Below, piece by piece: positions 3,186-64,000 of a stretch of DNA of 64,000 nt. The stretch's first letter is position 1; every line of letters starts with the position of its first letter. Source of the stretch: Utricularia gibba (lineage: Eukaryota; Streptophyta; Magnoliopsida; Lamiales; Lentibulariaceae). Both the position numbers and the translations under genes were made by a program. The stretch spans positions 3,534,001 to 3,598,000 of the forward strand of contig CM007991.1 of assembly GCA_002189035.1 (NCBI GenBank), read 5' to 3'. The notes under the pieces were generated by a model. That model had not been told where the DNA came from. It was given only the letters and a program-made list of their open reading frames with translations, and searched no databases.

Positions 3186-4398
3186 AATGCCTGATGTGTT
3201 TGATACCATAGTAAGTCAACGCGATCTCTATTTTTGTTTTGTTTTAGCTATTATCTTTTCTCAGTCTTGCTTTTGTGTGAATTTCGTCTCGTTTCGTTTC
3301 GTATTCTGGGTCGCCCTGGGATTTGCTCTCTTCCCTGTTTAAAGAAACACAATTTTTAGCATATTGATGAGCTTTCCTTGAATTTTAATGGGTTCGTGTC
3401 TGTTGTTGAATTGTTGTATCCAATGCGGTGTCTAACCAGTGATGCCTTGTTCAAGGTCGGAGCCTTTGGATGAAGATAAAGTTTGCACGAGTGCGGGTAT
3501 GTCCTGTTATTGTTTTGGGGTGAGTGTGATGTTATACACGCGCCAAAGCAGTGGAGATTTGGCAAGTTCCTGGTTGATATTGAAAAATCTGGCTTCTTTG
3601 GGTAAGCATTCTAGCGGTTGCTAGTTTGCTATTGATCTTCCTGTTTCCGTCTCCCTCATGCTTTTGTGGGTTGGCTTCTTCAAGATTGCAACTTCTTTTG
3701 ACTTTCTTCATACACTATCCTCCTATTAGATTTGCTTTTGGAGACGAATGATGGCAAACCATGTTATGTGGACGAGCAGGTCCCAACTGCAGTCTCTTGG
3801 TAGGTTCTTTTCATGTTGGATATATTTCTCATTCTTGTTTCACGGGGACCTTTCTCCTGGATGCAATTTTGCAACCAGACTCCCTCAAAGAAGAATGCCT
3901 TCATGTGTGTATGGTTCTACGTTGTGGATGCTACAGACAACCAGCTTATAACTGATCTAGTGCCTTTGCTAATCCTCTTGCAGCCTCATAATACGAAATC
4001 CGTAGTATCATAAAGAAGAAGAACTGCAAAGAGTCATCCGCCAGTGCAGCCATGGACCAATTCTCCGTTAATGCAACTGAATCAGAGCAATGCTCTCTAA
4101 ATACTTAATAAGGAATCTCCAGGATCTGGAACAAGCCATGGAAGATGAATCAGTCCGGCATCTGGCTCAAAAGGTTACACAACTTTACTCACCCTTCCTT
4201 GCACAGCAGCACATTTGTCATGAATAGGAAGAGTACTTACAGTCAGTACATCCCATCCCCTTTAATGTCAGATCTTGGACGCTGTTGGTACTTGAGGCTT
4301 CTTCTCGAGTTATGACCATGTGCTTCCTACTCCATACAGTTCACTCTGTGCCACCTCACATGTACGGTGCTCTTCTTTACCTATAACCCCACCGGGTC

Positions 4399-43397: not shown

Positions 43398-46300
43398 TTA
43401 GTTGCTCATTTGAGATATTGAATGACTGTTCTTACTAGTTCGCTTTATGCTCCGGCAGAACTTGCTGCCACATTGGCACTGGAAAGCCTTGATCGGGTGC
43501 TCGTGGTCATCAAAATCGATGCCGTAATCCTGTAAGTTGAAGAAGCTTTCGCAGGGTGAGGAAGATGAATAGGAAGGAAGTTGACAGGTTTTGAAACAGA
43601 GAGAGTGGAGTTAGCTACCCAAGTGAGCTCTTCCTTGGCTTTCACTTTTCTGGTAGTGAAGAAGGCCAGCTAGCAGTTGCAAAAAAAGAAGTCTTAGCTT
43701 CACCGGAAAACTTGAGTTGCAGAAGAAGAGGAGGCAATCATGGCTTACATGGTAGTAGTGATGATCCGGACCCTCCACTTCAACGGGTATCTCCACCAAG
43801 TTTGAGTCGTAACATCTGATTCAAAACGTGGGAAAAGTGGTCAGGAGGAGTGCTTGAAAATGTCCCCAGCGGGTGGCATGATTATGTACCTGTGATTGAT
43901 AAACCTTGCCACATTTCCGTAGTATGTAGCATCCAAACAAAGAGCTTCTTCATCTTTCAGAACACCTTCTACACACCAATCTGCATCAAGAAGCACAGGG
44001 TATGAATGTTTCTCCCCCTGTTGGCGCCGTGATACACGTTCAAATAGCTCTGCATTTGTTAAAACTTCTCCAACATATTCACACACAAATGCACCCTTTG
44101 GCAGGTCTTCCAGGGTGCGAAGACCCCAGCCTTTTCCTTCAGGAGTCATGAATACCTTAAGACAAATCATCCACAGTTTAGAAGCAAAGTTTCCAAGAGC
44201 CTGTGCTGTTAGGTTGTATATGAAGAAGTACCTGTAAATTGTGAGTGATTCCTCTCTGCACTACCCGGTTGCCACACTGTTTGCCACACCCACATTTCCG
44301 CCAACATTCTTTTATGAACTTCCTTACCAAATGCCCCTTGCAAGGATTCATGGTATCCTCGCACTTTGATCTCTCCAGAGGGCATTCCTTGCAGTAAAAC
44401 TGGGAGTGCTTCTTTGGATCCCGATTCATGGAAATGGACTCTTTAAGAAACTTGTCCTTAACAACACCATCAAGTGTGTACGCAAACTCACCTCCACTTT
44501 CAGCTGCACATGCACAAGGAAGCGATGGCAACAGACAATCCCCAGAACATGAAGCACAACAGTTATCGTCTCCAATTCGAGCCAGACAAAAATTAACATA
44601 TGCTTTTTCAAAAACTTCACTTTGGGGTATGTAGCAGAAGGATGGTGGCAACTCATTGTTCACTTCATTCACTATTGTAATCACAACCTTCTCCTGTCCT
44701 TTGGCGATATCAGAGATGCTACTCAATGGCCGACTACCTTCACGGGTAGCTTGGGGATTCTCGGTACACTCCAAAGTCGGCACTTTCAAGTCTTCGATGG
44801 ATATCTTTTGGCCACTTTCATTCTTCGCTACCTCAGAATTGACGTCCATGCTACTGGAAACTTGCTTGCACTTCCCATGAGGTAGCTCAGCCGCTGATGG
44901 AGAAGTAGAGCCATTCAAACGAGTATGACATGGACTGGGCGATCCATGGGAGTCAACAGCAGAACATTTTTTCATTGACCCATTCGCCTGAATCACATTT
45001 GAAGGTTTTGGTGACCCACTATTACAGCTACTTCTTAGCTTCGGAGGATCCCCTTGTATTTTCTTTTCTTGAACACCTGTGGCAGAACATATGTTCATTG
45101 TCTCATTGCTTGTGGAGCTCTTTACTTTAAGTGATAAACTGGGAGATGGCTCAACCTTAGTGTCTTTAAGGGTCACAGCGAGAGATGAACTACCTGGTGC
45201 TCGTCTCCTCTGCGTTGATGGCTCCGTAGGAGTATTCGATCCTTTAGCTCTTTCTCTAAGCGTCATTTTTGATCGGCCATCGTGTCGTTCTCTGATGATG
45301 TCACTAGGTTGGCCAGCATCAGAATTCTTCACTACGACTGAGGTTTTAGGAGAGTCATTTTGTCTCCCCTTCACCTTAGAAATCAAGTGTCCGGAGATTT
45401 CAGGGAGATTCATTACTCCATTTTCCGTATGTCCCTTTGTTGCCTCTGCAACATTACAAGACTCGTCTAGTTTTGAGAGAGTAGACTTTGGTTGAACATC
45501 CGGTGCTTCATTTATCCCAATAACTGAGGTCGTGAGCTTTCTGCCATGACGAGTTTTAGAAGATGAGATCCGACTATCATGAGATACCTCAGCCGCCGAT
45601 TGAGAGCTAGAGATATTCAAATTACTATAATGTGAACCAGAGAATTCTTGAGCGCCCCTGGCAGAAGATCTTTTCATTGATCCATTGGACTGAATCACAT
45701 CTGAAGGTTTTCTTGATCCACTATTAGAACTCCTTCCTAACTCTGCAGCATGCCTCTGCATTTTCATTTCTTGACCATTGGTGGCAGAAGATTTGTTCAA
45801 TGTCTCACTGCTTGTAGAGCTCTTTCCTTTAGGTGAGGAACTGGGAGGTGGATCAACCTTAGTGTCTTTAAGGGACACAGAGGGAGATGAACTCTCAGGT
45901 GCTCTCCTCTTCCTCACTGATGGCACCTGAGGATCAATCGATCCTGTAGCTCTTTCTCTAAGAGTCATACTAAATATCGCATTGTGTTGTTTTCTTCTGA
46001 CGGCACAAGGATGACCGGCATCCGAATCCTTCTCTAAAACGGAGGTTCTTGGAGGGGCAGATTGTGTTCCTTTCACTGTCTTATTTTCCCCATGCCCCCT
46101 CATCGCCCCAACAACGTCACAAGACCTTTCTAGTTTTGAGAGAGAAGGCTTTGGGACTGCATTTGCTTCTCCATTTAGTACAACAACTGAATTCCTGAGC
46201 TTTCTGCCACCAGACGTTTTAGAACCTGAAGCCTGGTCATCATCATGCTGCCCTGAACGTGATCTTTTCACCGGCCGTTGATCTGATTGAGCTTCTCCAT

Positions 46301-46611
46301 GCAAAGAATCCTCGCCCTATAAAGGAATGTGCCAAATTATCCACGGTCAGAAAAAGGGAAAGTATCCTACATTCAAATGTCTACATCGGAAGAGAAATGC
46401 AGAAGAGCACAATCATGCAAATATATACTCCTGGTTCATCTCTCTCAAATACAGCATCAGCAAGTACTCTATAATTTTCATCTTCTATAAGCTCCCAGTT
46501 TCTATCACAAGACATCAGCAAACTCGGCTTCACCTTGCCCTTAGGAATTCCAAGAGCGCATATTGTCGGAAAGGCGCTTGCAGACCTCACCCTCTTCTCC
46601 TTCTTCGCCAC
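43398..46611 (-). CDS. SUVR-type histone-lysine N-methyltransferase (WIYLD, pre-SET, SET, post-SET)
   Basis: A chromatin lysine methyltransferase of the SUVR1/2/4 group. Exons, right to left: WIYLD exon ending at 46429, then 44232-46316, 43890-44155, 43749-43815, 43619-43669, 43398-43529. The WIYLD domain ([33 protein letters not shown]) is recognisable but slightly short, and no ATG is in frame at its start: the frame opens at a GTG at 46611 with a TGA upstream, so the true start is unresolved (missed first exon or a sequence error). The large exon carries a tandem duplication of 220-230 codons and the pre-SET Cys cluster ([38 protein letters not shown]). SET motifs follow: [37 protein letters not shown]. 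The post-[11 protein letters not shown] completes the zinc site. About 920 residues, catalytic motifs intact. Confidence 0.92.
44865..45560 (-). repeat. SUVR intragenic tandem repeat, unit 2
   Basis: Coding repeat directly following unit 1. Shared anchors are [56 protein letters not shown] and SAAE..H. It carries an extra insert of about 16-20 residues ([16 protein letters not shown]). Confidence 0.8.
45561..46223 (-). repeat. SUVR intragenic tandem repeat, unit 1
   Basis: Coding repeat with the anchors [65 protein letters not shown] and QSAAEVSH in the same order as unit 2. It is Ser- and Lys-rich and probably disordered. Confidence 0.8.
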
Positions 46612-47275
46612 CCCGCCTGACTTTACCGTAAATTCAAAGCCTCATGTTCGCCTGAAAATCATACGATAACCAAAAAACAGCAGCACAACAAACATCATTA
46701 TGCAACTGTTTAACAAGGATATGAAGACTCGAGTGCGTACACAAGATGACACCTTTTCAAATTCGAAGTGGATATCGATTACCAGATCAACATACACAGG
46801 ATGCAGTTGGCAGACGCAGTGCTCAATCTTCTTGAGCATTCTTGAGTGGAGTGAAGAGAGCGCTGCATGAAGCCGAAAGCGTCAAGTGTTAAAATAGAGC
46901 AACGCTTGGTTGTCCATAGGGGACCCAACTTCAGGGAAGTTCTAGGGTTCCTCCTGTTGCCACTTGCGGCAGAAGTGATTCGGAGTCGGAATTGGAAAGG
47001 GAGGAGACATGCCACGTCATCCACAAAAAGCCGTAACCGTTTTTCTTTTCTCGTCAATTAATATACGAATATTCTTCCCTTTCTCGCTTATTTCAGAACC
47101 AGAAAAGGGAAGAGTCAATGGCGTCGCGGGAAGAAGAGCGGACGCCGCGGATTTGATGAAAATGCGTGATGTGTAAGTTGACCGATTGCAACGTACCTGG
47201 GATCTAGCTGTTTTTTGGATCTCTTTCTGGGTGAAAAAGCATCCGCCATTCGGTCGGCAGGAGGAGGAGGAGAAA
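46612..47275. other. Divergent region between SUVR and VPS62 genes
   Basis: Contains both leaders. On the SUVR side there is an acceptor-like TTTTCAG near 46648-46656 and then an ATG that stops after three codons, suggesting a spliced 5' UTR. No independent gene is seen. Confidence 0.5.
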
Positions 47276-60964: not shown

Positions 60965-62417
60965 TCTCAAATTCCCAAAATTTTGCCCAAAAATATCTAT
61001 ACACAACGACTTCAGGTTCTCCTTCCCTTTGGGAGCTGCGTCTTCAAACTCGTAGACAAATGCTTGGTTTAAGCGCATAAATCGTACTTTATATGCGCGT
61101 TGAATCAGTCTCGCATAGTTCTGTCACAAGGGCGTCGTTCACCCAATCAGAAAAACACACGTGTACTCCGTTTTATTATTTATGATAAATGATAAATTAC
61201 ACAAAAACCATTTTAATTTAATAAAAAAACACATCAACAGACAGTAAGATTGGTGTACCATCCAAAGTTATTCAATTTCAATTCTAAAAAATTTAACGTA
61301 ACCTATATCACGAACAATTCATATTCTAAAACGATTTAATCATTATTTTTTAAATAATATTTAAAAAAAACAGATCAGATACCATATATAGAGTTTTTTC
61401 CAGTACCATACCATCATCATCAATGCATCAAATTCTATCATACTTTCCAAAATAAATGTTTTTGGATGCTTATTTTGTTATAGTGGTGATCAAAGATAAA
61501 AATTATCCTAAAATAAACAATCAAAGTTTATATTGATTATATCCAAGATTGGGTTTTCCTATTCAAACAGCTACTTGTTTAAATTTTTATTAAAATTATT
61601 TTGAAATGATTTTTTCAAAAATGAAAGTTATGTATTAATAGTCTTCTAAAGTTACTTTGTTTAATTTTTGAGTATTCGAATTTCTATTAAAAACAAAAAT
61701 TCAAATTTTATGATTAATTTTAAAAATTATTAAATAGTTATTTTAATGATTAAATAAGATATTACTTAGGAAAATTATATTATTCAATTATTATTATTCT
61801 CAAAATATATTTACATCATAATATTGAATTATGTAATAATTTAATATACAAAAAATTTTTAACGTATGATTTATTTTATTAAATTTTATAGTATAATTTT
61901 GTATTATTTCACAAAACAATTTTACAATATCAAAATCAATTGTATTCACATAATCTCAAAATTAATTATATTATACATAATCTAAATCATACCTTTATAT
62001 CGCAGACCCATGGAATGCAATTTTGATTATTTTTTTAATATTTTTAAAATTGTAAAATAAATATTTGTGTATAATAATAATTTATATTAATTTGTTGAAA
62101 CGATGAATGCCTCCCCCTCACCACCTCTGTGCATTCCCGTACCACCCATCAAAACTTCGGCGTCGTTAATCGCCGCCGCGATCTCGTTTTGCAGGCGCAA
62201 CGCAACTTCGTTTCGTTAACCGGCGATTTGGTGTTTGATTTTAGGGTTTTTCTTTGAAAACAACTACTGTCGCTCTGGGGCTTTTTTTTGTTTTTTCAAT
62301 TGTGAGGGGATTGAATGAAGACGGTTTGGGAAAGGTTGGGGATAAAGATGACAAGAAGAGAATGGGTAGTTCAAAGAGGGGAAGATTGATCAAGGAGGGG
62401 AGGGTTCAGCGTTCGGC
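60965..62417. other. AT-rich intergenic region
   Basis: PDI leader and promoter on the right-strand side, then about 900 bases of very AT-rich sequence without coding signal (61150-62100), then the leader of the coiled-coil gene. A 71-codon frame at 62254 overlaps that leader and is not convincing. Confidence 0.6.
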
Positions 62418-64000
62418 ATGGGGATACGGGAGAGTGACGGCGATGAAACTGAGCGGCGGAGGTATTTGACTTCTAAACTGAGGGAGATTGCCATGAAGGA
62501 GGAGCGTTTGAAGTTAGATGCTGAAGAAGCTGATAAGAGGGAGAAGAAATTAGCAATGGTTATAGGTACATTGGATGGGCGAATAAACGCTGTTGAGGAG
62601 AGGGAGAAAGCTCTTGAATTGGCTTTGCGTAAAAATATTGAAAACTTGAGTCTGAAGGAGCAGCAACTGGACATGAAAGCAGAGATCTTTGCTTTGGAGG
62701 TGAAAAAGGCTGAGGAGAGGATTCTAAAGCAGTTCGAGAAGGAGAAAGAGGAATTGCATTTTTTCCTTGAGGAGGGTTTGAAAGACTTGGGTCTGAAAAA
62801 GGAGACATTTTGGAACAGGGTGGAGGAATTAACTGATAAGGTTAAACAGGTGCAAATGGTAAATGAAAGGCAGAAATCAGGGCATGGGAGTTCTGTGAAG
62901 AGGCCGAGAATGGCTGAGAATCAAGTCAAGCATCGGAAAGTGGCTGCAGAAGGGAGACTGATGGTGAGTAAGACACAGTTTCAAAAGGAGAAAGAGGAGT
63001 TTGGTTTCTTCCTTGGGGAGAATATGAAGAAGTTGACTTTAAAAGAGGAGCTGTTTTATAACAAGGTGGGGGATTTAACTGATAAGCTTCAACAGGTGCA
63101 AAGCGTATTTGAAAAGCAGAGGATATTAAGTGAGAACAGTATGAAGAGGCTGGAGCTTGCTGAGGATAAAGTTGAGGTTCTGAAGGTGGTTGTAGAAAGG
63201 AGATTTATGACGGTTGAGTCACAACAGAACACAAGTTTCCAATCTCTATATGAGGTTTTGAGGGAAGCTGAAATGATCAAGGAATCAGCAGAGAAGAAGC
63301 TTGAGGAGTTTGAGAAGATGAAGCAACAATTTGATGCTTATCAGGAGGGAGTGAGAGGACTGGAATTGAAGAAACTGCACCTTGTTGCAATGTATAAGGA
63401 TTTCAATGGTAAGTTGATTGACAAAGAAGGGGCGGTCAATCAGCTCATCGACACCTTGAATTTGAAACTGATTAACGTAGAGGGAATATGGAAATCAGTT
63501 CAAGACACCTGTGAAAGGAACAGACTGAAGGAGACTGAACTTAGCACATTAAGAGATTGGGTTGAGAAGAAAATGGAGGAGGCAGATTCTAAACAAGCGG
63601 AGTTGAAGGAGAGGGAGAAGTTAATCATGTTGAAAGAAGATTCATTGATGGTCAAAGAAAAACATCTCATAATGAAGGGAATGGCTCTGATGACTCAGCA
63701 GAGGGATCTTGAAAGGAGGCAGGGAGAAGTTGATAAAGCTAAAGAACAAAATGAACAAATGTCAGCACTTCTGGAATGGAGGGAGAAGAATCTGAACTCT
63801 GTAAAAGAATTTACGCGCAAGTGTTTCCTTGAGCATCGTGCAATGAAGAAAGAACTGGTTGCTGAAAGAAAAGCTCTAGAGAAACGTGCTTTTGAACTGC
63901 AACACAAAGGAATGAACAGAAATACAGATGACTCTGGGGCTGAAAATTCAATGGTGTCCATGGATGAGGAAACAATGCAAATGCTGTTGGACAACCCCAA
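62418..64000 (+). CDS. Long coiled-coil protein, partial (runs off the right edge); possibly FRIGIDA-like
   Basis: An uninterrupted frame of 527 codons from the ATG at 62418 to the window end, with no stop and no intron seen. Composition is almost wholly Glu/Lys/Leu heptad-like coiled coil (REIAMKEERLKLDAEEADKREKK, EREKALELALRK). It contains an internal tandem repeat of about 83 residues: EKEKEELHFFLEEGLKDLGL..EELTDKVKQVQ and QKEKEEFGFFLGENMKKLTL..GDLTDKLQQVQ. Near the edge the helix breaks into SGAENSMVSMDEETMQMLLDNP. That transition resembles the entry into the FRIGIDA domain of FRL5-type proteins, but the diagnostic part lies outside the window, so the family is only a suggestion. A KRPRM patch near residue 164 could be a nuclear signal. 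Confidence 0.75.
   Translation, partial: MGIRESDGDETERRRYLTSKLREIAMKEERLKLDAEEADKREKKLAMVIGTLDGRINAVEEREKALELALRKNIENLSLKEQQLDMKAEIFALEVKKAEERILKQFEKEKEELHFFLEEGLKDLGLKKETFWNRVEELTDKVKQVQMVNERQKSGHGSSVKRPRMAENQVKHRKVAAEGRLMVSKTQFQKEKEEFGFFLGENMKKLTLKEELFYNKVGDLTDKLQQVQSVFEKQRILSENSMKRLELAEDKVEVLKVVVERRFMTVESQQNTSFQSLYEVLREAEMIKESAEKKLEEFEKMKQQFDAYQEGVRGLELKKLHLVAMYKDFNGKLIDKEGAVNQLIDTLNLKLINVEGIWKSVQDTCERNRLKETELSTLRDWVEKKMEEADSKQAELKEREKLIMLKEDSLMVKEKHLIMKGMALMTQQRDLERRQGEVDKAKEQNEQMSALLEWREKNLNSVKEFTRKCFLEHRAMKKELVAERKALEKRAFELQHKGMNRNTDDSGAENSMVSMDEETMQMLLDNP

Follow-up and report, generated by a model that had tools for sequence, protein, structure and literature searches.

Organization of the locus

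The window (the whole stretch of 64,000 nucleotides of Utricularia gibba DNA that was analysed) contains on its minus strand a SUVR1/2/4-type gene with the domain order WIYLD, pre-SET and SET. The gene model was built by homology with two paralogues and comprises six coding exons, the splice sites of which were set in the same way. Specifically, an exon for the ubiquitin-binding WIYLD domain (46429-46611; identified by Pfam, gene model and paralogue alignment) is followed by a large exon of 2085 nt (44232-46316; an open frame of 712 codons with a Pfam Pre-SET match), which encodes the linker and then the pre-SET region. Further downstream on the minus strand lie a SET exon supported by Pfam and by the gene model (43890-44155) and, all three placed by the gene model, a SET exon that completes the catalytic NHxC motif (43749-43815; NHR/CYDSN), another SET exon (43619-43669), and the last coding exon (43398-43529), which encodes DYGIDF and the post-SET-like CQCGSKFC. 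The spliced model has 928 codons including the stop and no internal stops.

The WIYLD domain scored 47 bits against a Pfam cut-off of 27 (91.5 and 65.2 bits in the paralogues), and the pre-SET (PF05033, 38.7 bits) and SET (PF00856, 44.1 bits) domains follow in this order, both above cut-off. No SRA/YDG domain was matched by Pfam in the scanned exons of the gene, and the catalytic motif is present as NHRC in the spliced model; its H and C are the residues named for SUVR2 (PMC4260354). The gene thus resembles the SUVR1/2/4 group (V-6) of plant Su(var)3-9 SET proteins (PMC3063831, PMC4260354) in the order of WIYLD, pre-SET and SET, the lack of an SRA match, the NHxC motif, and the long linker. 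It differs from this group in that its linker is doubled and lacks a mid-linker segment common to the other SUVR genes of the genome, and in that its WIYLD domain is diverged and lacks a start ATG at the expected place. In the alignment to the paralogues, WIYLD has a 3-residue gap; moreover, GTG stands where the protein of the paralogue C317 has its first Met, and no in-frame ATG precedes WIYLD in positions 46429-46641 of the minus strand, the first one lying inside the domain, leaving the N-terminus uncertain. A further WIYLD match, in two pieces and with no adjoining pre-SET match, was found elsewhere in the genome (C1:589010-589255; L025) and may represent a fragment or a WIYLD protein in its own right.

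The duplicated linker

Two adjacent, in-frame units with sharp edges lie inside the 2085-nt exon, as delimited by DNA and protein self-alignment: unit 1, the N-terminal copy of 221 codons (45579-46241, minus strand), and unit 2, the C-terminal copy of 234 codons (44877-45578, minus strand), which includes a 13-codon stretch absent from unit 1. At the DNA level, direct copies of 300 nt (77% identity, spacing 702 nt) and 147 nt (72% identity, spacing 663 nt) were detected. The local protein score of unit versus unit was 494, compared with 55.8 ± 8.6 (maximum 88) in 500 shuffles, and the blastp E value was ~4e-62. Over 221 aligned codons, 52.5% of the residues are identical and 26% of the bases differ, with a single in-frame gap of 13 codons; with this many differing sites, an assembly artefact was rejected. 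We conclude that the observed duplication is real. The original prediction of a tandem duplication inside the SUVR gene, made from motifs shared in order, is therefore borne out by the DNA-level copies and the protein score, its unit lengths of 220-230 codons agree with those measured, the four motifs that it quoted (TLRERA.GS, SLKDTKV.P.PS, KSSTS.ET, and VIQ.NGSMK) are all present, and its placement between WIYLD and pre-SET matches the Pfam domains. Its coordinates (44865-46223) indicated the right region, with ends that deviate by 12 and 18 bases from the refined limits of 44877-46241.

As a measure of internal-repeat strength, we surveyed 34 distinct reading frames of at least 180 codons from the window and from the SET-gene loci of the same genome. 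The SUVR frame was by far the strongest (z = 56), the next unrelated frame reaching z = 13. Tandem Repeats Finder, for which the longest period was 500, does not report the duplication because of this 500-base limit. At the junction between the units (45576-45581, minus strand; junction alignment), a 4-bp CATG is a possible microhomology, and CATG occurs at three places, i.e. the start of unit 1, the junction, and the end of unit 2. This pattern would fit a duplication by short homology and is only suggestive, because the divergence of the units weakens it.

Both units have a composition of the disordered type in a charge-hydropathy analysis, as anticipated in the original prediction, while the catalytic part is classed as folded, and the net charge of the units is positive (+14 and +13). 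Comparison with solved structures gave no match to the linker, the matches being confined to the pre-SET region; an AlphaFold2 single-sequence model was poor (mean pLDDT of 35), with low values in the pre-SET region as well. Long internal exons coding for disordered regions tend toward more tandem repeats, including in A. thaliana and O. sativa (PMC12457776). The SUVR exon resembles these cases in being a long internal exon with disordered-type composition and an in-frame copy, and differs from them in having a single large unit of ~220 codons that is already at 52% identity. Taken alone, the duplication is an event of an ordinary kind.

Separately, a 543-codon frame on the plus strand (62370-63998), which has no Pfam match, is open to the end of the window and has a self-similarity score of 186 (z = 13).

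Paralogues and the age of the duplication

In the 100 Mb of the genome examined (516 contigs), three genes combine WIYLD, pre-SET and SET: the window gene, C317 (L023), and C213 (L024). In C317, the first linker exon has a single alignment, with unit 2 (E ~5e-9), and sequence further along the linker likewise has one, with unit 1 (E ~1e-7). When the end of the C317 mid-linker exon was compared with the two units in the same C-terminal test, the match to unit 1 was significant while that to unit 2 was not; collinearity of the C-terminal parts of the units with C317 is, on these alignments, only partly supported. No second copy of the linker was found in the C317 locus or elsewhere in the genome, and the short linker of C213 has no detectable relation to the units. 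Within this genome, the duplication is therefore special to the window gene and absent from the two other genes with WIYLD, pre-SET and SET.

The synonymous divergence between the units (dS 0.36; 0.25-0.48) is lower than that between the window gene and C317 over pre-SET and SET (dS 1.07; 0.80-1.53). The duplication is therefore later than the split of the window gene from C317, its closest paralogue, and would fall at roughly a third of the divergence of that split if rates are alike. Because dS varies from 0.17 to 0.76 in sliding windows along the units, partial gene conversion between them is possible, which could make them seem younger than they are. These data also bear on the idea of an ancient duplication, general to angiosperm SUVR proteins, that has been lost or blurred in the two paralogues. 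The fast divergence of linkers is compatible with such blurring; nevertheless, with a unit dS of about one third of the gene-split value, one copy in C317, and none in C213, we regard this scenario as very unlikely.

The mid-linker segment is common to C317 and C213 (score 74, p 0.0002) and has a folded-type composition in C213. A search of the window gene that took in its introns and read three frames found neither the segment nor a relic of it. In a three-way alignment, the segment corresponds to a gap inside both units, and the simplest reading of this gap is that the segment was probably lost from the window gene before the duplication.

The linker of C317 has likewise been enlarged by tandem copies, in a protein with the same domain order: it contains a ~46-codon repeat in four copies and a 51-codon repeat in two (L023:2645-3201 and 3228-3533), the last of which extends into the beginning of the conserved stretch that precedes pre-SET. 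Unlike in the window gene, it is another segment that has been copied in C317, where the ancestral linker and the mid-linker segment are still single. Because other sequence is involved, linker growth was independent in the two genes.

Selection and interpretation

Between the units, dN/dS is 0.88 (0.63-1.32), compared with 0.16 (0.10-0.22) between the window gene and C317 over pre-SET and SET. Thus, the units evolve almost neutrally, and the catalytic region is strongly constrained. As the value for the units comes from one pair and has a lower bound of 0.63, part of the linker may be under weak constraint. Residues identical between the units show no clustering (the longest run was 7, p 0.70; neighbouring identities gave p 0.28 and the densest windows p 0.71-0.79), and the motifs noted originally are therefore leftovers of a uniform divergence to 52% identity; selection on these motifs, which we considered, gained no support from the clustering test. 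A neutral simulation predicted 5-9 stop codons, with a probability of less than 0.01 of having none. The units contain no stops, demonstrating that the reading frame has been maintained, and this is explained by the need to read through the linker to the constrained SET domain downstream.

We consider it probable that the locus records a neutral intragenic tandem doubling of the disordered linker between WIYLD and pre-SET in a SUVR1/2/4-type gene, giving a longer flexible tether. In the suggested order of events, an ancestral linker such as that of C317 would first have lost its mid-linker segment, and the fused remnant would then have been copied head to tail within one long exon, in a single event of ~660-700 bp and perhaps via the 4-bp CATG match. 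Subsequently, the need for read-through to the SET domain would have preserved the frame, with almost free drift of the residues in the linker. The duplication is predicted to lengthen the flexible tether and to add little or no binding function. The original prediction had offered a change in partner binding or in spacing. The former is not upheld, given the dN/dS of the units and the lack of motif clusters among conserved residues; the latter follows from the longer linker, and any effect of the altered spacing is putative.

A selected gain of binding was nevertheless weighed, in which a binding module (e.g. the basic cluster RKRRAP or the SLKDTKVEP stretch) was doubled, raised the valency for chromatin partners, and was kept by selection. 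Both units are in frame and still positively charged, and LKDTKV and DAGxP are similar between the units and partly in C317, which speaks for this proposal. Because the downstream SET domain alone accounts for frame retention, and given the near-neutral dN/dS and a longest identical run of only 7 residues with no excess of clustering, we find it unlikely. The accessible portion of the work on Arabidopsis SUVR2 describes methyltransferase activity as not detected, silencing that tolerated mutated WIYLD and SET residues, and self-interaction that required the pre-SET and SET domains (PMC4260354). Because these WIYLD and SET residues are dispensable and self-interaction proceeds via pre-SET and SET, the linker is assigned no partner in that portion of the study.

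Two broader proposals concern the gene as a whole. If the gene were decaying, the duplication would be debris in a dying locus; the replacement of the start ATG by GTG, the diverged WIYLD domain, and the missing mid-linker segment point in this direction. Against this, the 928-codon model has no internal stops, its splice sites are consistent, the catalytic motif is present and the catalytic dN/dS is 0.16, and the window gene is nearer to C213 than C317 is (66% versus 56%), making decay highly improbable to us. Alternatively, the whole SUVR protein may have been remodelled, with the mid-linker domain lost, the ubiquitin-binding WIYLD domain eroding, a doubled tether to a conserved SET core, and altered silencing as a result; for U. 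gibba, a published study reports that DNA methylation is reduced and DCL3 truncated (PMC8333044). We hold such remodelling to be distinctly unlikely.

Returning to neutral doubling of the linker, the locus shows internal tandem duplication to be a way in which SUVR linkers lengthen. That two paralogues of a very compact genome have each undergone it independently argues for a loose constraint on linker length. Should the loss of the mid-linker segment and the erosion of WIYLD hold up, the gene would be a natural test of which SUVR parts are dispensable. In literature searches whose reach mostly excluded subscription papers, no paper was found that mentions SUVR together with Utricularia, nor did the WIYLD papers searched yield a description of such a duplication.

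Two further observations concern the paralogues. One repeat copy in C317 (L023:2786-2925) has 140 rather than 141 bases and shifts the frame between two long open frames; either a mistake in the assembly or a genuine break in the frame could account for this. In C213, WIYLD through pre-SET lies in one unbroken open frame (L024:656-1966), whereas introns interrupt this part of the two other SUVR genes, which suggests intron loss in the C213 gene.
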